Assembly: GCF_029773605.1 (NCBI RefSeq)
Contig: NZ_CP103807.1
Coordinates: 992,001-1,056,000, forward strand
DNA: 64,000 nt
From: Actinobacillus genomosp. 2
GTDB taxonomy: Bacteria > Pseudomonadota > Gammaproteobacteria > Enterobacterales > Pasteurellaceae
Reading direction: 5' to 3'
Shown piece by piece: positions 9,321-60,919 of the stretch. The notes below the pieces were generated by a model that was not told where the DNA came from, made no database searches, and saw only the letters and a program-made list of their open reading frames with translations. How positions within the stretch are numbered: position 1 is the stretch's first letter; each line of letters begins with the position of its first letter. Position numbers and translations under genes: made by a program.

Positions 9321-9321
<1 letters not shown>

Positions 9322-10211
9322 TATTTATAACTTCCTTCTATTTCATGCATAATCCATTCCACAAAATGTTGCACTTTCGCAACTTCTTTCATTTGCGGAG
9401 GATATACAACATAAAATGCTTTTTCATCATAGACATCTGTAGCAAACGGCTCAATCATCGAGCCTTCTTCAATTTCATCTTGAGCAAGAATTCGATTAGC
9501 AACCACTACACCTTGACGATGCTTCGCCGCTTGAATCCCCATTGAAGTATTCGGGTACATCGGACCGGATTCAACTTCTAAATGGTTTAATCTCAGGTGT
9601 TCCGCCATTTGCTTCCATTTAGTATGTGAACAAACGTGAATCAAATTTTTACCTTCTAAATCTTGCGGTTTACTAATAGGATTATCTCGCAAATATTCCG
9701 GTGCAGCCAAAATCATAATTCTAGCCTGAACAAGTTCAATCGCTTCAAGATTCTGCCAATTACCTGTTCCGTAGTAAATTGCGACATCAATATCTTTACC
9801 TAATAACCCTTCATCTTGTGAAGCCGTAGTCAGCCGCACTTCAATATCCGGATATTTATTGTGAAACTCGTTTAAGCGAGGTACAAGCCAGTGCATACCG
9901 AATGATGGTGTCGTACTAATTGAAAGAATTTGTCGGCTACTTTTTAACTTAACTTTTTCAGTAGCCATCGCAATTTGTTCCAAAAGCGGTTGAATATCTT
10001 CAAAATATTGCTGACCGGCTTCAGTTAATTCTAATAAGCGATTTCTGCGATGAAATAATGACACGCCGAGAAAATCTTCTAATAATTTTATCTGATGACT
10101 TACTGCCGCTTGCGTTACAAATAAATCATCCGCCGCTTTAGTAAAATTTAAATGGCGAGCTGCCGATTCAAATGCTTTTAATGCATTTAATGGAGGGAGT
10201 CTTTTGTTCAT
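9321..10211 (-). CDS. gcvA: LysR-type regulator GcvA
   Basis: 296 residues. The N-terminus RLPPLNALKAFESAARHLNF and the helix-turn-helix LFVTQAAVSHQIKLLEDFLG are diagnostic of GcvA, the glycine-sensing regulator of the glycine-cleavage operon and activator of the small RNA GcvB. The C-terminal half keeps GcvA features such as DVAIYYGTGNW and HRQGVVVANRILAQDEIE. The gene is divergent from the GcvB RNA gene, as in E. coli, which supports both calls. It is the first gene of an overlapping operon with yjjG, cysB and a DUF3108 gene, so glycine status and sulfur regulation may share a transcript here. Confidence 0.95.
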
Positions 10212-10347: not shown

Positions 10348-10353
10348 TCGTGC

Positions 10354-10536
10354 CGTACTTAGACAGATAGTGATAGCTGAGATAGACTCTCCGCTATTTC
10401 AGATTTTTAAGTATGATGTTGTGTTTGCATATTGGTCTAGGAAACTAGGCTAGAGTAACCTTGAGTTACTCGTTTCACTTCCTGTATATTTTGAACCCTT
10501 TTGGTTTATCAACCGCCCTATTTGGGCGGTTTTTTT
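10354..10536 (+). ncRNA. gcvB: GcvB small regulatory RNA
   Basis: A Hfq-dependent trans-acting small RNA that represses peptide and amino-acid uptake and synthesis genes. Support: it is divergent from gcvA as in E. coli; the GU-rich seed region R1 (GATGTTGTGTTTGC, 10415-10428) is near identical to E. coli GcvB; it is followed by an ATTGGTCT-type segment, a perfect 7-bp hairpin (GAGTAAC/GTTACTC), the conserved TTTCACTTCCTGTA region, and an intrinsic terminator with a GC-rich stem and seven T's (10512-10536). A 5' hairpin (CTGAGATAG/CTATTTCAG) precedes R1. Total length about 183 nt. The exact 5' end is estimated from the promoter. A short open frame at 10247-10453 overlaps it and is not a gene. 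Confidence 0.93.
10512..10536 (+). terminator. gcvB terminator
   Basis: ACCGCCC / GGGCGGT stem with a TATTT loop and a run of T's. It forms the 3' end of GcvB, where the U-tail is the usual Hfq contact. The remaining bases to 10739 are AT-rich and must hold the rsgA promoter; nothing else was seen there. Confidence 0.9.
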
Positions 10537-10739
10537 CGTTTATATCTTATCTATTGTATCAGAATCGATAAATCCTGCCAGTATTTGGCAACTATTTTCA
10601 TTAAAATTTCTTATCCCAGACCATAAATTATAAATTTTTTATTCATAAACGAAAACAGCATCATTACGCCGGTACTACATAAATCCTGTAATTTATAGTA
10701 TCCTTCCGTCTTATTTTGATTATCTAATAGAGAGCTCCC

Positions 10740-27923: not shown

Positions 27924-27928
27924 TCTTG

Positions 27929-28106
27929 CCTGAGGTGTACGTTGTTAGTTACGTCCCTGAGCCGATAATTTAAAACTTTGAGTTGGACATCTAGTCGCTG
28001 GTGAGCAGGCTTACCTTGAGTAAGAAGCCTAAAGGCAATTAAGTTCGATTCCCTTGAACCTTTTGGTTCAAGGACCATCACTGATAACGGCACTTCGGGT
28101 TCTTTT
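27929..28106 (+). ncRNA. ssrS: 6S RNA
   Basis: Binds the sigma-70 RNA polymerase holoenzyme and represses transcription in stationary phase. Support: location between zapA and fau as in E. coli; conserved GTCCCTGAGCCGATA and TGGTGAGCA segments; and a closing stem in which CCTGAGGTG (27929-27937) pairs with CACTTCGGG (28091-28099). The hairpin CCTTGAACC/GGTTCAAGG near 28052-28074 matches the upper arm in E. coli. The bubble and long bent hairpin shape can be traced. About 178 nt; ends approximate. A T-run (28102-28108) follows. Confidence 0.93.
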
Positions 28107-37941: not shown

Positions 37942-37949
37942 ACACAACA
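37942..37949 (+). promoter_or_regulatory. Predicted GcvB site in ilvE leader
   Basis: ACACAACA just before the ilvE ATG is a perfect 8-nt complement to the GcvB R1 region and overlaps the AAGGA ribosome site. Same position and near-same sequence as in ilvG. Confidence 0.55.
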
Positions 37950-37951
37950 AC

Positions 37952-38989
37952 ATGGCTTTAAAAGATTTAGATTGGGCTAATTTAGGCTTTTCCTACATTA
38001 AAACAGATTATCGCTTCATCGCACATTGGAAAGATGGTAAATGGGATGAAGGTCAATTAACTACCGATAACACTCTCCATATTCACGAAGGTTCAACTGC
38101 ACTTCACTACGGCCAACAATGTTTCGAGGGCTTAAAAGCCTATCGTTGCAAAGACGGTTCTATCAATTTATTCCGCCCTGAAGAAAATGCAAAACGTATG
38201 CAAGGTACAGCACGCCGTCTATTAATGGCAGAAGTGCCGACCGAGTTATTTGTGCGTGCTTGTAAAGAAGTAGTCAAAGCAAACCAAGATTGGTTAGGCC
38301 CATACGGTTCAGGCGCTACACTTTACTTACGTCCGTTCTTAATTGGTGTCGGTGAAAACATTGGTGTTAAAGCCGCTCCGGAATACATTTTCTCCGTATT
38401 CTGCTGTCCGGTGGGTGCGTATTTCAAAGGTGGTTTAGCACCGTCTAACTTCATCACAACCGACTACGACCGTGCCGCACCAATGGGAACCGGCGGTGTT
38501 AAAGTGGGTGGTAACTACGCGGCAAGTTTATTACCGCATGAATTGGCGGCAGCACAAGGCACAGCAACACGTAAATTTGCCGATGCGATCTACCTTGATC
38601 CGAAAACTCATACTAAAATTGAAGAAGTGGGTGCAGCAAACTTTTTCGGTATTACCAAAGACAATAAATTTATTACCCCAGCGTCAGAATCGATCTTACC
38701 AAGTATTACCAAATACTCGTTATTACATATTGCTAAAGAGCGTTTAGGTATGGAAACGATTGAAGGCGACGTATATATTGATCAGTTAGATCAATTCGCC
38801 GAAGCCGGCGCTTGCGGTACAGCGGCGGTAATTACACCGGTTGGTGGTATTCAGCATAAAGGTAATTTCCACGTATTCTATTCAGAAACGGAAGTTGGTC
38901 CGGTAACAAAACGCTTATATGCAGAGCTGACCGGTATCCAATTTGGTGATGTAGAAGCACCAGAAGGCTGGATTGTTAAAGTAGAATAG
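37952..38989 (+). CDS. ilvE: Branched-chain amino acid aminotransferase
   Basis: 345 residues, the longer class IV aminotransferase form. It makes valine, leucine and isoleucine from their keto acids. The PLP lysine is in the [15 protein letters not shown] stretch; [13 protein letters not shown] and [15 protein letters not shown] are the cofactor-binding segments. It stands outside the ilvGM and ilvD group at 52.6-56.4 kb. The next gene is a RidA-type protein, which protects IlvE from 2-aminoacrylate. Confidence 0.95.
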
Positions 38990-44824: not shown

Positions 44825-46426
44825 TTATTTTGCCTCTAAATCAACCCCGTAGAAATTATGTAAGCTAAATGGGCTGATCACATAACCTTTTACTTCCTTA
44901 CGAACCGGGAAATAAGTGGTTGAGTGAGCAATGGTTACCCATGGTGCTTGTTCTTTGAAAAGTACTTGCGCTTGTTTATAAAGCTCGGTACGTTTTGCTT
45001 TATCAGTTGTTTGAACTGCATCGGTCATTAACTTATCAAAATCTTTATGACAGAATTTGGCATAGTTAGAACCTTGTTTTACTGCCGCACAACTTAATAA
45101 AGTATTCAGGAAATTATCCGGATCGCCGTTATCACCGTTCCAGCCCATCATACCGGTGGTATGTTCGCCGTCACGCATACGATTGAGATATTCACCCCAT
45201 TCGTAACTCACGATTTTGGCATTCACACCCACTTTTTTCCAATCTTCTTGGATAAGCTCCGCCATACGACGTGCATTCGGGTTATACGGACGAGAAACCG
45301 GCATTGCCCACACTTCAGTATCAAAACCTTTTTCCAATCCGGCTTCTTTTAACAAGGCTTTGGCTTTTTCCGGATTATAGTCATAATCCTTCACTTCATC
45401 GTTATAACTCCACATTGTCGGTGGAATCGGATTTTTCGCTTTTTCACCGGAACCTTGATAAACAGACTGAATAATTGCATCTTTATTAATCGCATAGTTT
45501 AACGCTTGACGCACTTTCACATCATCAAACGGTTTTTTCTGCGTATTGAAATGTAAATAGCCGATATTTAAACCCAGCTTGGTCATTAAATTGATATTCG
45601 GATCTTTTTTCAATGCTTCAAGATCAGCCGGATTCGGATAAGGTGCGGCGTGACATTCACCTTTTTGTAATTTCGCCATACGCACCGAAGCATCCGGTGT
45701 AATCGCAAAGACTAAACGGTCGATCGCCGGTTTACCTTCCCAATATTGCTCAAAACCTTTATAACGAATCTGAGCATCTTTTTGGTAATCAACAAATTGG
45801 AATGGTCCCGTACCAACCGGATTTTGATCTAATTTTTCAGGCGTACCCGCTTTTAATAATTTATCCGCATATTCCGCAGAGAAAATCGAAGCAAAATCCA
45901 TCGCAATATTCGCTAAGAAGGGTGCATTCGGTACTTTTAGATTAATTTTAACCGTATAATCATCCACTTTCTCAACATTTTGAATAATGTTGCCCATATC
46001 CATACCGATAAAATATTCATAGTTACCACCAGATACTTTATGATACGGATGATTCGGATCTAATTGACGATTGAATGAGAACACTACATCGTCCGCATTA
46101 AAATCACGGCTCGGTTTAAAATCTTTAGTCGAATGGAATTTCACCCCTTTACGTAAATAAAAGGTATAACTTTTGCCGTCTTCCGACACTTCCCATTTTT
46201 CCGCTAAGGATGGTACAACTGTTGTTTCGCCTTTAGCAAAGTCAACTAAACGATTAAAAATCGCTTGGCTGGTTGCATCAAGCGTACCGCCGTCTGTTGC
46301 AAATTGCGGATTTAAATAGGTAGGAGAGGCTTCTAAACAATAAACAAATGTTTTAGGTGCAGCAAAAGCCGAACTTGAAGCGGCAATTGCCAATGAGAGC
46401 AGAGAAAGTTTTGTTAGTTTATTCAT
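44825..46426 (-). CDS. dppA: Periplasmic dipeptide/haem-binding protein, copy 1
   Basis: 533 residues (E. coli DppA 535). Signal peptide MNKLTKLSLLSLAIAASSSAFA, then an SBP family 5 domain: FVYCLEASPTYLNPQFATDG, FYLRKGVKFHSTKDF, TGPFQFVDYQKDA, NIGYLHFNTQKKPFDD and MGWNGDNGDPDNFL. The two Cys common in DppA (FVYCLE, GECHAA) are kept. In H. influenzae a DppA-like protein, HbpA, also binds haem and glutathione. It heads the dppABC(D)F run. Its leader carries GCAAACACAA, a perfect complement to the GcvB seed. Confidence 0.93.
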   Translation of the reverse strand: MNKLTKLSLLSLAIAASSSAFAAPKTFVYCLEASPTYLNPQFATDGGTLDATSQAIFNRLVDFAKGETTVVPSLAEKWEVSEDGKSYTFYLRKGVKFHSTKDFKPSRDFNADDVVFSFNRQLDPNHPYHKVSGGNYEYFIGMDMGNIIQNVEKVDDYTVKINLKVPNAPFLANIAMDFASIFSAEYADKLLKAGTPEKLDQNPVGTGPFQFVDYQKDAQIRYKGFEQYWEGKPAIDRLVFAITPDASVRMAKLQKGECHAAPYPNPADLEALKKDPNINLMTKLGLNIGYLHFNTQKKPFDDVKVRQALNYAINKDAIIQSVYQGSGEKAKNPIPPTMWSYNDEVKDYDYNPEKAKALLKEAGLEKGFDTEVWAMPVSRPYNPNARRMAELIQEDWKKVGVNAKIVSYEWGEYLNRMRDGEHTTGMMGWNGDNGDPDNFLNTLLSCAAVKQGSNYAKFCHKDFDKLMTDAVQTTDKAKRTELYKQAQVLFKEQAPWVTIAHSTTYFPVRKEVKGYVISPFSLHNFYGVDLEAK

Positions 46427-46440
46427 TGAATACTCCAGTA

Positions 46441-46450
46441 TTGTGTTTGC
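46441..46450 (-). promoter_or_regulatory. Predicted GcvB site in dppA copy 1 leader
   Basis: Minus-strand GCAAACACAA, a perfect 10-nt complement to GcvB R1 (TTGTGTTTGC), 15 bases before the start codon, next to the GGAG ribosome site. dppA is a proven GcvB target in enterobacteria. Confidence 0.75.
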
Positions 46451-46609: not shown

Positions 46610-48208
46610 CTATTGGGAATTTTCTAGTTCAATGCGATAAAAATTATGTGATAAAAAAGGACTGACCGTATAGCCTTTTACTTCTTTACGTATTGGAAAA
46701 TAAGTTGTCGAATGTGCAATCGGCAACCAAGGCGCTTGCTGTTTAAAAATTACTTGAGCCTGTTTATAAAGTGCTTCTCGCTTTACCTTATCTGGCTCTT
46801 GCGCTGCTTGCGTAACTAAATCATTGTAAGATTTATCACAGAAATGTGCATAATTTGAGCCTTGTTTGACCGCATTACAACTTAATAAAGTATTTAAGAA
46901 ATTATCCGGATCACCGTTATCGCCAGTCCAGCCCATCATACCGGTTGAATGTTCGCCTTGTTCCATTCGCTTGAGGTATTCTCCCCATTCAAAACTAACA
47001 ATTTTGGCATTCACCCCGATTTGCTTCCAATCTTCTTGAACCATTTCAGCCATACGACGTGCATTCGGATTATACGGGCGAGAAACCGGCATTGCCCATA
47101 ATTCCGTTTCAAAACCATTTTCCAAGCCAGCTTCTTTTAATAACGCCTTCGCTTTCTCCGGATTATATTCATAATCCTGAACCTGATCGTTATAGCCCCA
47201 AATTGTCGGCGGCATCGGATTTTTGGCAACAGAACCTGTACCTTGATACACCGATTCTAAAATTGCCTGCTTGTTTACCGCATAATTGAGAGCTTGACGT
47301 ACTTTCTGATTATCTAACGGTTTCTTATCCAAATTAAAAGTAATATAGCCGATATTTAAGCCGGATTTTTCTAATACTTGTAAGTTAGTATCCGCTTTCA
47401 TCTGAGCAATATCAGCTGGGTTTGGATACGGCATTGCCTGACATTCGTTTTTCTGCAATTTGGCATAACGTACCGTCGCATCGGGTGTCACACTAAACAC
47501 TAAGCGGTCTAATTTTGCCCTCCCCTGCCAATAATCATCAAATGCTTTAAAACGCACATAAGCATCTTTTTGTAAACCGGCAAACTCAAACGGTCCAGTA
47601 CCAATCGGTGCAGTATCGACTTTTTCCGGTGTGCCAGCTTTTAACATTTGGTCAGCATATTCTGACGAGGAAATTGACGCGAAATCCATCGCAAGATTAG
47701 CTAAAAACGGGGCATTTGGCACTTTTAAGTGGAATTTAACTACATAAGTATCCACTTTCTCTACTTTCTCAATAATATTAGGCATATCCATACCTAAGAA
47801 AAACTCGTAGTTACCGCCCGACACATTATGGAAATAGTTATATTTATTTAATTGGCGGTTAAAAACGAATAGCACATCATCGGCATTGAAATTACGAGAT
47901 GGGGTAAATTCTTTATTTTTATGAAATTTAACCCCTTTACGTAAATAAAAGGTATAAGTTTTACCATCCGCAGAAATATCCCATTTTTCAGCTAAGGAAG
48001 GAATAAGATTTGTCGTACCCGGCTCAAAATCAATTAAACGATTATATAACGCCTGTGCTACATCTAATGTTGCACCGTCTGTACCGATTTGCGGATTTAA
48101 AAAGGTGGGAGAAGATTCAATACAATAAGTAAATGTTTGCGGAGCCGCCAGAACAGAGCCGGAAAAAGTTGCAATAGCAAACGCAGATAAGGCAGAGAGT
48201 TTTTTCAT
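46610..48208 (-). CDS. Periplasmic dipeptide/haem-binding protein, copy 2
   Basis: 532 residues, a close paralogue of the downstream dppA: the two share long identical runs such as MPVSRPYNPNARRMAE, YNPEKAKALLKEAGLE and FCVIES-type starts, and differ more in the middle. Signal peptide MKKLSALSAFAIATFSGSVLA. It is separated from copy 1 by an inverted uptake-sequence terminator, so it is probably a monocistronic unit with its own ligand range (peptide, haem or glutathione). Its leader also carries a GcvB-complementary site (48219-48228). Confidence 0.9.
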   Translation of the reverse strand: MKKLSALSAFAIATFSGSVLAAPQTFTYCIESSPTFLNPQIGTDGATLDVAQALYNRLIDFEPGTTNLIPSLAEKWDISADGKTYTFYLRKGVKFHKNKEFTPSRNFNADDVLFVFNRQLNKYNYFHNVSGGNYEFFLGMDMPNIIEKVEKVDTYVVKFHLKVPNAPFLANLAMDFASISSSEYADQMLKAGTPEKVDTAPIGTGPFEFAGLQKDAYVRFKAFDDYWQGRAKLDRLVFSVTPDATVRYAKLQKNECQAMPYPNPADIAQMKADTNLQVLEKSGLNIGYITFNLDKKPLDNQKVRQALNYAVNKQAILESVYQGTGSVAKNPMPPTIWGYNDQVQDYEYNPEKAKALLKEAGLENGFETELWAMPVSRPYNPNARRMAEMVQEDWKQIGVNAKIVSFEWGEYLKRMEQGEHSTGMMGWTGDNGDPDNFLNTLLSCNAVKQGSNYAHFCDKSYNDLVTQAAQEPDKVKREALYKQAQVIFKQQAPWLPIAHSTTYFPIRKEVKGYTVSPFLSHNFYRIELENSQ

Positions 48209-48218
48209 TAGGATTCCT

Positions 48219-48228
48219 GATATTGTGT
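48219..48228 (-). promoter_or_regulatory. Predicted GcvB site in dppA copy 2 leader
   Basis: Minus-strand ACACAATATC pairs with GATGTTGTGT of GcvB R1 at all ten bases with one G-U, 11 bases before the start codon. Confidence 0.6.
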
Positions 48229-50673: not shown

Positions 50674-52179
50674 TTATTTCGCTTCTGCTTTTGGTGCTGT
50701 AACCGCTTTCGGTTCTTCTACTGCAGGTAATAAACCTTTTTCACGAGCTTGAGCTTCCCATTGTGGAACGACTGTACGTAAAAATTCTGCTTTATCTGCC
50801 TCTAATTTTGGCATATTTAAACCAATCGCTTTTTGTGCTTTTTCTCTCGTAGAAATATCTGGAATAGCAACCGGTGTTGTTACACCATGTTTCGCTAATA
50901 CTACACCGAGTTTCGCACGAGCATCCGCTGCACGGTCAATACCTGTTGCAATTACATGCAGCATTACATCCGGAGCGTGCATATGGCTACCGTGACCCGC
51001 TGCTGAGTAATCCCAACGCCATTGAGCGTGACGAATTGCTGTTAACACATCTTTCATTTCTTCTTGAGTTGCACCAGCATCCCAAGCTGCTTTCGCTTCA
51101 AAGTGTGCTTTCACTAATTGATCTTCAAGTTTGATCATTGCTTCTTTAACTTGATGTTTATGCTCTTTTACACGTTTTTGTAATGTTTCTTTGCTTTGTT
51201 CATGACACGTTTTACAAGTCACATCAAATTGATCGAATGGATTACCAATTTTGTGATCCGTATAAACTTTACCATCTTTATCTTTCACTTTCGGCATATG
51301 GCAGTCGATACAAGTTACGCCATTTTTACCATGTACACCTTGAGACCAAACTTCAAAATCTGGGTGTTGTGCTTTTAACATAGGTGCTTTAGATAAAGCA
51401 TGAGTCCAGTCAGTAAATTGAATTTCATCGTAATATTTCTCAATACTATCGACATCCACACCTTTTTTCCAAGGGAACGTTACGTCCGTTTTATCTTTAA
51501 AGTAGTACTCAACGTGACAGTTTGCACATACCGCAACACGTTTACCATGTTTATCTAAATCTTCAAATTTCCAACCTACAGTTTCTAATGCACGTAATAC
51601 GTGTGGACGAGCAACGCGTAATGCTGGTTTGCCTTCTTCAAACTCTTTAGATTTTGTATCATGACAGTCTGCACAACCGATTGAGTTTACGATTTCAGCA
51701 CCGTATTTTGCCCATTTCGGATCAAAGTAACCACGCTCGCCTTTTTCTTCGATTAAGCGAGGTACATCCGGACCTTTACATGTCCAACAAGCCATTGGCT
51801 GAGGGCCATCATTTTCATCTTTTGGTGCACCAGTACGTAAAATTTCACGTACGTCTGTTACTGCATAATAGTGACCACGAGGTTTGTTATACTCTGCGGA
51901 AAATAAATAACCCGCCCATAACACAACATAACGAGGATCTGCTTCTAATGCACTACCACGATCCGTTGATTCTGAAGTGGCTTTCCATGAGTTATATTGA
52001 AGCGGATATTTTTCAGCAAATTTATGGTTTGCCGATTCTACTACTACACCTAGTTTTTCATGTTTTAATGCTTTATCTGTTAAAGATGGAGCTTTCGCTT
52101 CCTCTGCCCATGCTGATGATGATAAACACCCCAACATCGCAATGGTCGCCATTGCTAATTTTTTAGTTAAACGTTTCAC
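50674..52179 (-). CDS. nrfA: Periplasmic cytochrome c nitrite reductase NrfA
   Basis: 501 residues from the GTG at 52179, which has a GGGGG ribosome site eight bases before it; an in-frame GTG at 52194 would lie in that site. Signal peptide to about residue 26 ([20 protein letters not shown]). The active-site haem is bound by the special CWTCK motif; the other four by CADCH, CANCH, CIDCH and CKTCH. Catalytic and calcium-site residues lie in CIDCHMPKV. It reduces nitrite to ammonium with six electrons from formate by way of NrfBCD. First gene of the operon; an FNR box and a NarL/NarP-type site lie upstream. Confidence 0.96.
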
Positions 52180-52308
52180 GTTGTGTCCCCCCACAAAATG
52201 TAGATAGAAATGATAACTTTTCTTATTAAAACAATAAGATAAACTTTAAGTTTCATTAATGAGAATAGAACAAAATAACTAAAATTTTTAGTTCGATTTT
52301 AACTTTTA

Positions 52309-52587: not shown

Positions 52588-52596
52588 ACACAACAT
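52588..52596 (+). promoter_or_regulatory. Predicted GcvB site in ilvG leader
   Basis: ACACAACAT just before the ilvG ATG is a perfect 9-nt complement of GcvB R1 and lies next to the AAGGA ribosome site. Confidence 0.65.
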
Positions 52597-52599
52597 ACA

Positions 52600-54252
52600 A
52601 TGAACGGTGCAAATTTAGTCATTGAAAGTCTGAAAGCACAGGGCGTGACTACACTATTTGGTTACCCTGGTGGGGCGATTATGCCTACTTATGATGCGCT
52701 TTATGACTCAGGATTAGATCATTTATTAGTTCGCAACGAGCAAGGTGCGGCAATGGCTGCTATTGGCTATGCACGTGCAACGGGTAAAGTTGGGGTATGT
52801 ATTGCGACTTCCGGTCCTGGTGCAACGAATTTGATTACCGGATTGGGCGATGCAGCGTTAGATTCTATTCCTGTGGTTGCTCTTACTGGACAGGTAGCAA
52901 GTCATTTGATCGGTACAGACGCTTTCCAAGAATCCGATGTTTTAGGCTTATCACTCGCTTGTACTAAACACAGTTTCATTGTCCAAAATATTGAAGAATT
53001 ACCGGAAATTATCGCTCGAGCGTTCCAGATTGCACAAAGTGGTCGTCCTGGTCCGGTATTAGTCGATATTCCTCGTGATATTCAACTCGCTCCAACTTCA
53101 GCCAAACCGATTGTTTATGAAAAACAGCCTGTTGGCCCACAAGATCCATACTTACTCAGTGAAGCAAAAGCTCTATTGGCTAATGCTAAACGTCCGGTAC
53201 TTTACGTCGGTGGCGGTGTCGGTATGGCTGGCGGTGTACAAGCGGTCAGAAATTTCCTAAAAGTCACAAATATTCCGTCTGTATCAACCTTAAAAGGGCT
53301 AGGCACAATTACCGTTGATGATCCACTTTATATGGGTATGATCGGTATGCACGGTACTAAAGCAGCAAACTATGCGGTACAAGAATGTGATCTTTTAATC
53401 GCGTGCGGAGCACGTTTTGACGACCGAGTAACCGGTAAATTAGACACTTTTGCGCCACACGCTAAAGTGATTCATATTGATATTGATATTGCTGAAATTA
53501 ATAAGTTACGCAAAGTACAGGTGGCATTACAAGGTGATTTAATTGAAGCAGTTAATGCTTTGGCACAACCGTTAGATATTGAGCCTTGGCGTGAAGATGT
53601 AAAACGCTTAAAAGCAGATTTGGATTTCCACTATATTGATAATGCCGGAGAAGGCGATATTGATGCTAAGGCATTACTAAACACGCTTTCACAACGCAAA
53701 CCGAAAAATGCGATTATCACGACTGATGTAGGCCAACACCAAATGTGGTCTGCACAGCATTTACAACATTTTGCCCCGGAAAACTTCATCACTTCGGCAG
53801 GTTTCGGTTCAATGGGCTTCGGTTTACCGGCAGCGGTGGGTGCGGTAAAAGCTCGTCCACAAGATCCTGTGATATTAGTCACCGGTGACGGCTCAATTAT
53901 GATGAATATCCAAGAATTCGGCTCAATCAAACGTGGCAAGTTACCCATCAAAATTTTATTACTAGATAACCAACGTTTAGGAATGGTACGCCAATGGCAA
54001 TCACTCTTCTTCCATGGTCGCCACAGTAATACGATTTTAGATGATAATCCCGATTTTGTGGTATTGGCTTCAGCGTTTGGAATTGAAGGTGAGCGTATCG
54101 AAAAAGCAAGCGAAGTATCTGACGCATTAGATCGTTTGCTCAATGCCAAAGAAGCTTATCTACTACATGTTTGTATTCCGGAAGAAGATAACGTATGGCC
54201 GCTTGTGCCACCGGGTGCGTGTAACGCCGATATGCTTGATGATGAAGTGTAA
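52600..54252 (+). CDS. ilvG: Acetolactate synthase II large subunit
   Basis: 550 residues (E. coli 548). It condenses two pyruvates, or pyruvate and 2-ketobutyrate, in the first common step of Val/Leu/Ile synthesis. The ThDP site is visible as GDGSIMMN with the [12 protein letters not shown] tail, the catalytic Glu in [11 protein letters not shown], and the FAD region [23 protein letters not shown] identifies the IlvG isoform, and ilvM follows in 18 bases. An uptake sequence lies inside it (53238-53246). Confidence 0.95.
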
Positions 54253-54270: not shown

Positions 54271-54489
54271 ATGCAACGTTACGATCTAACTATTACGGCA
54301 GAGAAACGCCCTGAAACACTTGAGCGAATTTTACGAGTTGTACGTCATCGTGGATTTGAGATTTTAACGATGAATGTCAGTAGTGATACACAACATTTTG
54401 AAATGACACTTCATATACAAAGTACACGAGCGATTGAATTGCTGACGCATCAATTAAGCAAACTGATCGATGTAAAATCGATTCGCTAA
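54271..54489 (+). CDS. ilvM: Acetolactate synthase II small subunit
   Basis: 72 residues, shorter than E. coli IlvM (87). A single ACT-like domain (MQRYDLTITAEKRPETLERI, then FEMTLHIQSTRA). IlvM activates IlvG; isozyme II is resistant to valine feedback in E. coli. It is followed by an inverted uptake pair (54510-54567) that may weaken read-through into ilvD. Confidence 0.9.
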   Translation: MQRYDLTITAEKRPETLERILRVVRHRGFEILTMNVSSDTQHFEMTLHIQSTRAIELLTHQLSKLIDVKSIR

Positions 54490-54567: not shown

Positions 54568-54581
54568 ACATTGTTCAAAAT

Positions 54582-54591
54582 AACACAACAT
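54582..54591 (+). promoter_or_regulatory. Predicted GcvB site in ilvD leader
   Basis: AACACAACAT is a perfect 10-nt complement of GcvB R1, 21 bases before the ilvD ATG. Confidence 0.65.
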
Positions 54592-54611: not shown

Positions 54612-56447
54612 ATGCCTATTTTACGTTCTGCAACCTCAACGCAAGGTCGCAATATGGCAGGTGCACGTGCATTATGGCGTGCAACAGGAATGAAAGAAAA
54701 CGACTTCGGCAAACCGATTATTGCCGTCGTAAACTCATTTACTCAATTTGTACCGGGTCACGTTCACTTACGTGATATGGGTAAACTGGTAGCTGAACAA
54801 ATTGAAGCTGCCGGCGGTGTTGCAAAAGAATTTAATACAATCGCAGTGGATGACGGTATCGCAATGGGTCACGGCGGTATGCTTTACTCACTACCAAGCC
54901 GTGATTTAATCGCTGACTCGGTTGAATATATGGTCAATGCACACTGTGCCGATGCAATGGTGTGTATTTCAAACTGTGACAAAATCACTCCGGGAATGTT
55001 AATGGCAGCAATGCGTTTAAATATTCCGGCAATTTTTGTTTCCGGCGGCCCAATGGAAGCTGGCAAAACCAAACTCTCGGATCAGCTGATTAAATTAGAT
55101 TTAGTCGATGCCATGGTACAAGCAGCAGATAAAAATGTATCGGATGCAGATGTTGCTGCTATCGAACGTTCAGCTTGCCCTACTTGCGGTTCTTGTTCGG
55201 GTATGTTTACTGCTAACTCCATGAACTGCTTAACCGAAGCATTAGGTTTATCTTTGCCAGGTAACGGTTCAATGTTAGCTACCCACGCTGATCGTAAAGA
55301 ATTATTCTTAAAAGCCGGTCGTCAAATTGTTGAGCTTTGCAAACGTTACTACGAGCAAGACGATGCGAGCGTATTACCACGTTCAATCGCCACCAAAGCG
55401 GCATTTGAAAATGCAATGAGCTTAGATATCGCGATGGGCGGTTCAACCAATACGGTTTTACATTTATTAGCAGCGGCACAAGAAGCGGAAGTAGATTTCA
55501 CTATGGCGGATATCGATCGTTTATCACGTGTAGTTCCTTGCTTATCAAAAGTTGCCCCAAATACCAATAAATATCATATGGAAGATGTACACCGTGCCGG
55601 CGGTATTATGGCGATTTTAGGCGAGTTAGATCGTGCAAAATTATTACATAACGACACAAATACTGTACTGGGTATGACGATTGGTGAACAAATTTCACAA
55701 TACGATATTATGTTAACCAAAGACGAAGCAGTACATAAATTCTTCCGTGCCGGCCCAGCGGGTATTCGTACCACACAAGCATTCTCACAAGATTGTCGTT
55801 GGGATACGGTAGATAACGACCGCCAAAACGGTTGTATTCGCAGCAAAGAACACGCATATAGCCAAGACGGTGGTTTAGCAATGCTTTCTGGTAATATCGC
55901 ACTGGACGGTTGTATCGTAAAAACTGCCGGTGTAGATGAAAGTATCTTGAAATTTACCGGCGAAGCCATTGTATTTGAAAGCCAAGAAGATGCGGTTGCA
56001 GGTATTTTGGGCGGTAAAGTACGTGCTGGTCATGTCGTTGTGATTCGTTACGAAGGTCCGAAAGGTGGTCCGGGTATGCAAGAAATGCTTTATCCGACCA
56101 GTTACTTAAAATCAATGGGGTTAGGTAAAGCCTGTGCATTATTAACAGACGGTCGTTTCTCTGGCGGTACATCAGGTTTATCAATCGGTCACTGCTCGCC
56201 GGAAGCAGCGGCAGGCGGTTTAATCGGTGTGGTAAAAGACGGCGATACGATTGAAATCGATATTCCAAACCGCCGTATTGAGTTAAAAGTGGCAGAAGAA
56301 GAACTAGCACAACGTCGTACAGAACAAGATGCGAAAGGTTGGAAACCAGCAAATCGCCAACGTGAAGTATCATTCGCCTTAAAAGTGTACGGACATTTTG
56401 CAACTTCTGCGGATAAAGGTGCAGTACGCGATAAAACCAAAATCTAA
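54612..56447 (+). CDS. ilvD: Dihydroxy-acid dehydratase
   Basis: 611 residues from the ATG at 54612, placed by GGAG and by the family start [18 protein letters not shown]; a TTG four codons upstream overlaps the ribosome site. It removes water from dihydroxy acids in Val/Ile synthesis. Cys ligands of the Fe-S cluster are in [12 protein letters not shown] and [12 protein letters not shown] terminator follows, so ilvD is the end of the ilvGM-ilvD group. ilvA and ilvC are elsewhere. Confidence 0.97.
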
Positions 56448-59324: not shown

Positions 59325-59564
59325 TTAAAGCCCTTTTTTGACCCAGTAACGATATGGGGTGTTTTCCGTTTCGCTATTTAGCAATTGGTGATCCATAAAT
59401 TCACAAAAACTTGGAATATCTCGCGTGGTAGCCGGATCGTCCGCCACAATTAATAATACCTCGCCTTCCGCCATATTGCGGATGGTTTTGCGAGTGAGCA
59501 TTACTGGCTCTGGGCAACGTAGCCCAAGCGTATCTAATGTTTGGTCAATTTTTATATCCGTCAT
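59325..59564 (-). CDS. tusA: Sulfur-carrier protein TusA
   Basis: 79 residues (E. coli 81). The carrier Cys17 lies in [10 protein letters not shown]. TusA takes sulfur from IscS to TusBCD for the thio group of tRNA wobble uridines. The gene starts 23 bases from the divergent pepQ start. Confidence 0.95.
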
Positions 59565-59587
59565 ATTTTTCTCTTATTTTTTCTTTT

Positions 59588-60919
59588 ATGAAACAATTAT
59601 TTACACAACATATCAAGCGACTACAACAAGTCGTTCAAACCATTTTAGAAAGTAACTTTCTCAGCGGTTTATGGATTCACTCCGGCACGGCTCGCTATCA
59701 TTTTTTAGATGATCAAACCGCCCCCTTTAAAATAAGCCCACATTTTAACTACTTCTTCCCTTTTCCGACAGCAGAAAATTGCTGGCTGTTTTTAGACGGC
59801 AAAAATAAACCGACCGTCTATTTCTATGCACCAAACGATTATTGGCACTCGTCGCCGACCGTCCCGACAGACGCTTTTTTTGCAGATGAATTTCAATGGG
59901 TGATTTTGCAAGATGCCCAAGAAATTGCAAAATTTATCCAAAATCCGACCGCTTGTGCCTTTATCGGTGAGGATAAAAACTTGGCAGAATCACTTGGTTT
60001 TAACCAAATCAATCCGCAAAAAGTGCTAAATCAGCTCCACTTCGAACGTTCGATAAAAAGTGAATTTGAAATCGAAGCAATCTATCAAGCACAATTTGCG
60101 GCATTAAAAGGGCATCAGGCGGCAAAACAAGCCTTTTTTGAGGGGAAGAGTGAGTTTGAAATTAACCTCGCTTACCTAAAAGCCAGTCAGCAATCCGACT
60201 TAAACGTGCCTTACGGCAATATTGTCGCCATTAATCAACATTCGGCTATTTTACACTATACTCAGTTTGATTACGCCCCTAATCCGCAACTGCAGAGTTT
60301 TCTGATTGATGCCGGTGCAACCGTACACGGCTACGCTTCCGATATTACTCGCACTTATGTGGTTGATTCTAAGAGCGAATTTGCAGCAATGATTAAGCAA
60401 ATGGAACAATACAAATCTCGCATTATTGAGCAACTCACAGTTGGGGTGAACTATCTGAGTTATCATACGCAAATACAGCAATGGATTGCGGAAATGCTGC
60501 ACGAATATGATTTTGTTCGCCTTACACCGGAACAAATTTTTGAAGAAGGGATTTCCAGAGCCTTTTTGCCACACGGTTTAGGACATTTGCTTGGACTACA
60601 AGTACACGATGTCGCCGGTTTCCAACAAAATCATCGTGGTACTCGTAAATCACCGCCGGAAGTTTATCCAAGCCTGCGTTGTACTCGTGATTTGGCGGAA
60701 AATATGGTGCTGACGATCGAACCGGGCTTCTATTTCATTGATATGTTACTGAATCCGTTGCAAAATAGCCCTCTTGCACGTCATATTAATTGGCAAAAGA
60801 TCGCTGAATTTAAACAATTCGGCGGTATCCGCACCGAAGACAATATTGTGATGCGTTCACAAGGAGCGGAGAATTTAACCCAAAAAGCGGAAATTGAACT
60901 CCAACTTTCCGATAGTTAA
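59588..60919 (+). CDS. pepQ: Xaa-Pro dipeptidase
   Basis: 443 residues from the ATG at 59588, the E. coli length; an earlier ATG at 59537 would overlap the start of tusA and has no homology. M24 peptidase with the two-metal ligands in [39 protein letters not shown] and LTIEPGF (pieces). It splits dipeptides with C-terminal proline. The leader is pyrimidine-rich with no clear ribosome site. An uptake sequence lies in the coding region (59948-59956). Confidence 0.94.

Follow-up and report, generated by a model that had tools for sequence, protein, structure and literature searches.

Predicted GcvB seed-pairing sites before branched-chain amino acid and dipeptide-binding protein genes of Actinobacillus genomosp. 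2 and their recurrence in the Pasteurellaceae

In enterobacteria, the R1 region of the small RNA GcvB base-pairs with C/A-rich mRNA elements that lie within or next to the ribosome-binding site, and initiation is blocked; dppA is a major target, and gcvB is activated by GcvA under excess glycine (passages of PMC3879156). In Vibrio alginolyticus, an IlvG-GFP fusion rises in mid-log phase when gcvB is missing, that is, GcvB lowers ilvG, and effects of GcvB on ilvA, ilvC, ilvD, ilvE, leuBCD, and brnQ are also described (passages of PMC9409037). The GcvB regulon and its seed-binding region are reported to have been determined in Pasteurella multocida, which belongs to the same family as the organism studied here but to another genus (Gulliver et al. 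2018, RNA 24:704, as described in citing papers). For Actinobacillus pleuropneumoniae, excerpts of three papers report that GcvB (Arrc01) is expressed, with ilvE, ilvC, lrp, and serA as predicted targets (PMC4986893), that it is Hfq-bound (PMC9577009), and that its transcript maps upstream of gcvA (PMC4809551). This species carries the same genus name as ours, and ilvE and serA are common to that prediction and the candidate targets here; by term counts, ilvG, ilvD, and dppA are absent from the main text of PMC4986893 ("ilv" twice, "dppa" 0). GcvB control of branched-chain genes is already published and not new in kind. What is new here, as read from sequence, is a set of predicted sites in a new genome and more candidate targets, which would extend the known type of control to further genes.

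The window analyzed is a stretch of 64,000 nucleotides from Actinobacillus genomosp. 2, whose genome comprises 1.88 Mb on one contig and is listed as 81.9% complete. Compared with V. alginolyticus, where ilvGMEDA is one operon, ilvE is separate and of type II in this genome, and two dppA copies have sites of their own. The difference from enterobacterial dppA likewise lies in the two tandem copies, whose sites have diverged.

The gcvB gene and R1 complements in five leaders

The GcvB gene occupies positions 10353 to 10538 on the plus strand and matches Rfam RF00022 over its full length (model positions 1 to 204 of 204), with a score of 98.7 bits against a cutoff of 42 and an E value of 1.3e-20. 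It adjoins the divergent gcvA (9321 to 10211, minus strand), whose product is a LysR regulator scoring 400.9 bits with the NCBIfam model NF008352 GcvA (cutoff, 288). The R1 seed, GATGTTGTGTTTGC, lies at 10415 to 10428 on the plus strand, nucleotides 63 to 76 of the Rfam match. Its mean unpaired probability is 0.61, against 0.42 over the whole GcvB RNA; in the lowest-energy fold it is partly paired, with a weak 4-bp hairpin inside and just after R1. RF00022 was found at an E value of 0.001 or lower in all 61 family genomes searched, our own included, and above the cutoff in 60. The 11-nt R1 core ATGTTGTGTTT is present in all 61 of these GcvBs, and the match to R1 extends over the full 14 nt in 49, over 13 nt in 9, and over 12 nt in 3. 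An ordinary feature of the window is a 6S RNA gene at 27924 to 28105 (RF00013, 118.6 bits).

An earlier note on this DNA had listed complements to R1 in the leaders of ilvE, ilvG, ilvD, and two dppA genes. All five were measured again and are present. They are C/A-rich and 8 to 11 nt long, each contains ACA, and all fall from -30 to -3 relative to the start codon, within or next to the ribosome-binding site. The ilvE site, ACACAACA, lies at 37942 to 37949 on the plus strand (-10 to -3), immediately 3' of AAGG. The gene itself (37952 to 38989, plus strand) encodes a type II branched-chain aminotransferase, with 482 bits for TIGR01123 ilvE_II (cutoff, 250). This IlvE scores under the cutoff of the type I model, presumably the enterobacterial one, yet its gene has a GcvB site of the same kind. 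The ilvG site, ACACAACAT, also directly follows AAGG, at 52588 to 52596 on the plus strand (-12 to -4); ilvG (52600 to 54252, plus strand) encodes the acetolactate synthase II catalytic subunit (NF006524, 936 bits; cutoff, 738).

The ilvD site, AACACAACAT, at 54582 to 54591 on the plus strand, is an exact 10-nt match. It lies at -30 to -21, counted from the ATG at 54612 that we took as the start (the open reading frame [ORF] list has TTG 54600). The reported distance of about 25 bases from the start therefore applies to the other four sites and is slightly exceeded in ilvD. The dihydroxy-acid dehydratase encoded there (54612 to 56447, plus strand) scores 1,199 bits with NF009103 (cutoff, 710). 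The P. multocida consensus is reportedly 5'-AACACAACAT-3', identical to this ilvD site; a literature text search for that motif together with GcvB returned no match.

The two dppA genes stand in tandem on the minus strand, each with its own R1 site. Copy 1 (44825 to 46426) has GCAAACACAA at 46441 to 46450 (-24 to -15), and copy 2 (46610 to 48208) has ACACAATATCA at 48218 to 48228 (-20 to -10). The latter, with one G-U pair, had been described as 10 nt long (48219 to 48228); it is there, and its length is 11 nt. For both dipeptide-binding proteins, NF043070 DppA_dipep is the best model, with 867 and 823 bits, respectively, yet under its cutoff of 1,005. When G-U pairs are allowed, contiguous runs with the R1 region reach 10 nt in ilvE, 12 nt in each dppA copy, and 11 nt in ilvG.

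A few other features lie near these sites. A small plus-strand ORF between ilvG and ilvD (54271 to 54489, seen as a translated ORF) is taken to be ilvM-like from its operon position. The leader of nrfA, which is divergent from ilvG, has a 7-nt R1 complement (ACACAAC) at 52195 to 52201 on the minus strand, directly before the GTG start and below the 8-nt threshold used here. Just 5' of the ilvD site, GTTCAAAATA at 54573 to 54582 is a perfect 10-nt complement to another part of GcvB (nucleotides 135 to 144, at 10487 to 10496), a pairing that is possibly due to chance. Away from cataloged starts, further exact plus-strand copies of ACACAACAT are found at 51921 (antisense to nrfA), 54388 (inside the ilvM-like ORF), and 59603 (inside the ORF at 59537 to 60919).

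The anatomy of the locus fits established GcvB biology, from which we infer repression. We consider it highly likely that GcvB R1 pairs with the ilvE, ilvG, ilvD, and both dppA mRNAs at, or immediately 5' of, their ribosome-binding sites and lowers synthesis of the encoded proteins. GcvB would be made from the gene beside gcvA, its G/U-rich R1 would pair with the C/A-rich elements at or just 5' of the ribosome-binding sites of the five mRNAs, and the pairing would block ribosomes, so that less of the branched-chain enzymes and dipeptide-binding proteins would be made when amino acids are plentiful. Very probably, then, GcvB targets all five genes and represses them because pairing masks the ribosome-binding site. 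In this organism, GcvB would be expected to alter the levels of DppA, IlvD, IlvE, and IlvG; by analogy with the described systems, GcvA would activate it and Hfq would help, and the repression, its growth conditions, and its physiological sense would be similar.

Controls in the window and recurrence in relatives

Exact R1 complements of at least 8 nt occur in 4 of the 66 leaders in the window, dppA copy 2 not being among the four. The 144 other 14-mers of GcvB find such complements in 0.50 leaders on average and in 3 at most, while four leaders are also reached by 1 of 79 distinct dinucleotide shuffles and by 1 of 1,000 mononucleotide shuffles of the seed. The excess over chance is no more than moderately firm in the window alone; the matches themselves guided the choice of the five genes, which leaves the test there weak and partly circular. 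We also carried out the interaction prediction over all leaders, compared with shuffled R1, that the earlier note had proposed. The mean duplex energy is -17.6 kcal/mol for the five leaders and -12.4 kcal/mol for all 66, a difference matched by none of 300 shuffles, and dppA copy 2 has the best energy of the 66. Duplex energy, computed without accessibility, thus sets the five apart as a group but not ilvD singly, which ranks 25th of 66. Counting the leaders that reach -10 kcal/mol or lower gives an unremarkable 47 (mean with shuffled seeds, 43.1; 70 of 300 shuffles gave as many).

We collected leaders (-45 to +9) from the family for ilvD (59), ilvE (59), ilvG (56), and dppA-like genes (45). 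The ilvG leaders of two genomes, where the protein matches lacked the N terminus, were left out, and IlvI-like matches stayed outside the set. For the DppA family, 46 leaders were taken from 105 matches and one was dropped for want of an N-terminal match; the 59 matches left out, the window's own copy 2 among them, were more distant paralogues except for one. The dppA set mixes copies, and one retained leader lacks a start codon where the start was set. In some ilvD leaders, our own included, the TTG of TTGGAG served as the start, which shifted the stretch by about 12 nt. Eighteen enterobacterial dppA leaders, taken from 80 loci related to DppA copy 2, had exact R1 complements of 5 to 10 nt and included several stretches that missed the true start, and were for these reasons not useful as a positive control.

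Exact R1 complements of at least 8 nt were found in 23 of 59 ilvD, 24 of 59 ilvE, 19 of 56 ilvG, and 17 of 45 dppA leaders. With the 144 other GcvB 14-mers, the same leaders gave means of 0.12 to 0.35 and maxima of 3 to 5, and none reached the R1 counts. At 8 nt, the R1 count was not equaled for any gene by 79 dinucleotide or 400 mononucleotide shuffles, so that the shuffled-seed check proposed earlier came out in favor of R1. Other thresholds are less clean, and many shuffled seeds share part of the R1 seed. Dinucleotide shuffles equaled R1 for ilvE at 7 nt (1 of 79), 9 nt (3 of 79), and 10 nt (4 of 79) and for ilvG at 7 nt (10 of 79) and 10 nt (2 of 79); at 7 nt, 1 to 3 of 400 mononucleotide shuffles equaled R1 for the three ilv genes, and 2 of the 144 other GcvB 14-mers did so for dppA.

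When each genus contributed a single leader for each gene, R1 complements of 8 nt or longer turned up in 53 of 148 leaders; the reversed seed scored 5, and 2,000 shuffles averaged 2.47 in these pooled leaders, with one shuffle reaching 53. At 10 nt, the pooled numbers are 23 for R1, 0 for the reversed seed, and a shuffle mean of 0.12. The matches are also positioned: complements of at least 8 nt were found in 83 of 219 leaders when the 54 nt from -45 to +9 were considered, and in 1 of 219 when the 25 nt from -70 to -46 were. The last 13 nt before the start hold most of the matches in ilvE (12 of 16) and ilvG (10 of 12), and those of ilvD and dppA lie 8 to 40 nt upstream of the start. In many relatives, as judged by eye, the flanks vary widely around a complement that stays close to the Shine-Dalgarno sequence or start codon, as expected of selected target sites. 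The earlier proposal that GcvB coordinates branched-chain synthesis with peptide uptake gains support from this recurrence and from the genome-wide excess described below; since the sites recur at a kept position and the controls are beaten at 8 nt, such coupling is the best reading of the predicted sites.

The sites are far from universal. At least one site of 8 nt or more is present in the collected leaders of 38 of the 61 genomes, and all four genes have one in four genomes, namely, the three that belong to the window's genus plus one more. The remaining 23 genomes have none in the leaders collected, even though 16 of them carry the full 14-nt R1; two of the 23 had no match for the three ilv genes. 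We therefore discarded the idea of a universal ancestral regulon, against which the 23 genomes speak as well as the dapD sites, which are confined to 4 of 30 dapD loci (see below). The three GcvBs whose R1 match ends at 12 nt, with the last GC changed, all occur in genomes without a site in the four genes; a link between the shortened R1 and the absence of sites is suggestive only, because just two genera are involved. Our genome has IlvG as its sole acetolactate synthase catalytic subunit (at an E value of 1e-100 or lower), and most relatives, including both other genomes of the genus, have an extra IlvI-like copy; its absence here may be a gap in the incomplete assembly or a real loss.

Patchiness within the family bears on the alternative that only some of the five genes are real targets, with, for example, dppA copy 2 or ilvD being neutral. 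The site of dppA copy 2, with its G-U pair, has an exact core of 6 nt and no exact R1 match of 7 nt or more, and sites are patchy in the second or more divergent dppA leaders of relatives. The energy rank of ilvD points the same way. Yet dppA copy 2 heads the energy ranking, and among relatives long matches are proportionally commonest in ilvD, with at least 10 nt in 17 of 59 leaders. A partial set is plausible, if somewhat less than probable, and we favor all five genes as targets.

Motif survey of the whole genome and a wider candidate regulon

In the whole genome, there are 36 places where ATG follows ACACAACA within 28 nt. Read backwards, the entire pattern occurs at 19 places; the reversed motif ACAACACA stands before ATG at 20 places. 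We filtered 33 of the 34 distinct places of the forward motif, omitting one that lacked a start-proximal ORF. This ORF filter leaves ACACAACA in front of 10 plausible genes. Applied to the reversed motif, it leaves 2, a tatC-like gene and serA, and in both cases the motif is nested in an R1 site. The reversed-seed comparison over the genome thus agrees with the earlier proposal. Seven of the 10 genes belong to amino acid synthesis or uptake (ilvE, ilvG, ilvD, hisG, serA, dapD, and a MetQ/NlpA-family lipoprotein gene). The others are a PanS/BASS-type transporter gene, under both cutoffs, and two genes that we take from their sequences to be TatC-like and ParD-like.

The motif CAAACACAA is in excess as well (46 places, against 22 backwards) and adds asd, lysA, a napC-type gene, and argE, in which the site lies just inside the coding sequence. 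With a looser ORF filter, 20 of 91 distinct sites in the loci examined pass, some of them with ORFs that look spurious or hold the site in their coding sequence. Genome-wide overrepresentation of the 9-mer ACACAACAT was rejected (17 places, against 15 backwards).

The predicted R1 regulon is wider than the five genes. The start-proximal motifs suggest asd, lysA, serA (whose site extends over 12 nt), dapD, hisG, and the MetQ/NlpA-type gene as further R1 targets, so that the lysine, serine, and histidine routes may be controlled too. Among the best 30 of 58 dapD matches, the three genomes of the window's genus and one further genome have the dapD site AACACAACA, and the other 26 of these 30 loci have no R1 match of at least 8 nt; dapD is a lineage-specific predicted target. 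The result is a specific list of candidate GcvB targets for an Actinobacillus-type bacterium, which can be tested. With the seed nearly invariant and the target set changing across one family, turnover of a small-RNA regulon becomes measurable from sequence. Restraint of amino acid synthesis would be of practical interest with regard to A. pleuropneumoniae (excerpts of PMC4986893), and the accepted view of the role of GcvB is unchanged by these sites.

Composition offers another explanation: as ACA motifs, the C/A-rich elements might be maintained because they enhance translation, and their complementarity to GcvB would be incidental. In Salmonella, ACA motifs at GcvB target sites, that of dppA included, boost translation (passages of PMC3879156), and ACA is found within all five sites here. 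An enhancer built on composition should not, however, distinguish the seed from its own letters in another order: the same-letter reversed motif precedes just the 2 nested genes, against 10, and letter shuffles at 8 nt matched R1 neither per gene nor, with one exception in 2,000, in the pooled leaders. The two functions coexist in the published Salmonella case, so they are not exclusive; an enhancer role could accompany pairing, whereas a pure enhancer role is disfavored and appears improbable. It is very improbable that AT-rich leaders produced the five matches by chance and that a searching reader singled them out: the occasional window shuffles with four leaders, the exact copies away from starts, and the ordinary genome-wide frequency of ACACAACAT fit this view, but it is largely refuted by the start-proximal excess over the genome and by the return of the sites in the corresponding leaders of other genera, both independent of how the sites were chosen.

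gcvB and ilvE as neighbors

Of the Pasteurellaceae genomes, 59 contain both gcvB and ilvE, and in 50 of these gcvB is the immediate upstream neighbor of ilvE, with both genes on one strand and a gap of 110 to 226 nt (median, 168 nt); in a 51st genome the gap is 630 nt. The two genes do not adjoin in the window's genus (3 genomes, 27 to 90 kb apart) or in five other genomes. A narrow search of the text available on gcvB, ilvE, and Haemophilus returned no mention of this adjacency. Because of the adjacency in 50 of 59 genomes, the ilvE site in 24 of 59, and, in the window's genus, the full four-gene set together with the lysine branch (dapD, asd, and lysA), Pasteurellaceae gcvB might be tied both physically and functionally to branched-chain synthesis, GcvB in the window's genus might act mainly as a brake on amino acid synthesis, and read-through from gcvB into ilvE might form a second link where the genes adjoin. 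We put this forward as a speculative and rather unlikely extension. The set of ilvE, ilvG, ilvD, and dppA is nearly covered by R1 sites in several genera in which gcvB and ilvE adjoin.
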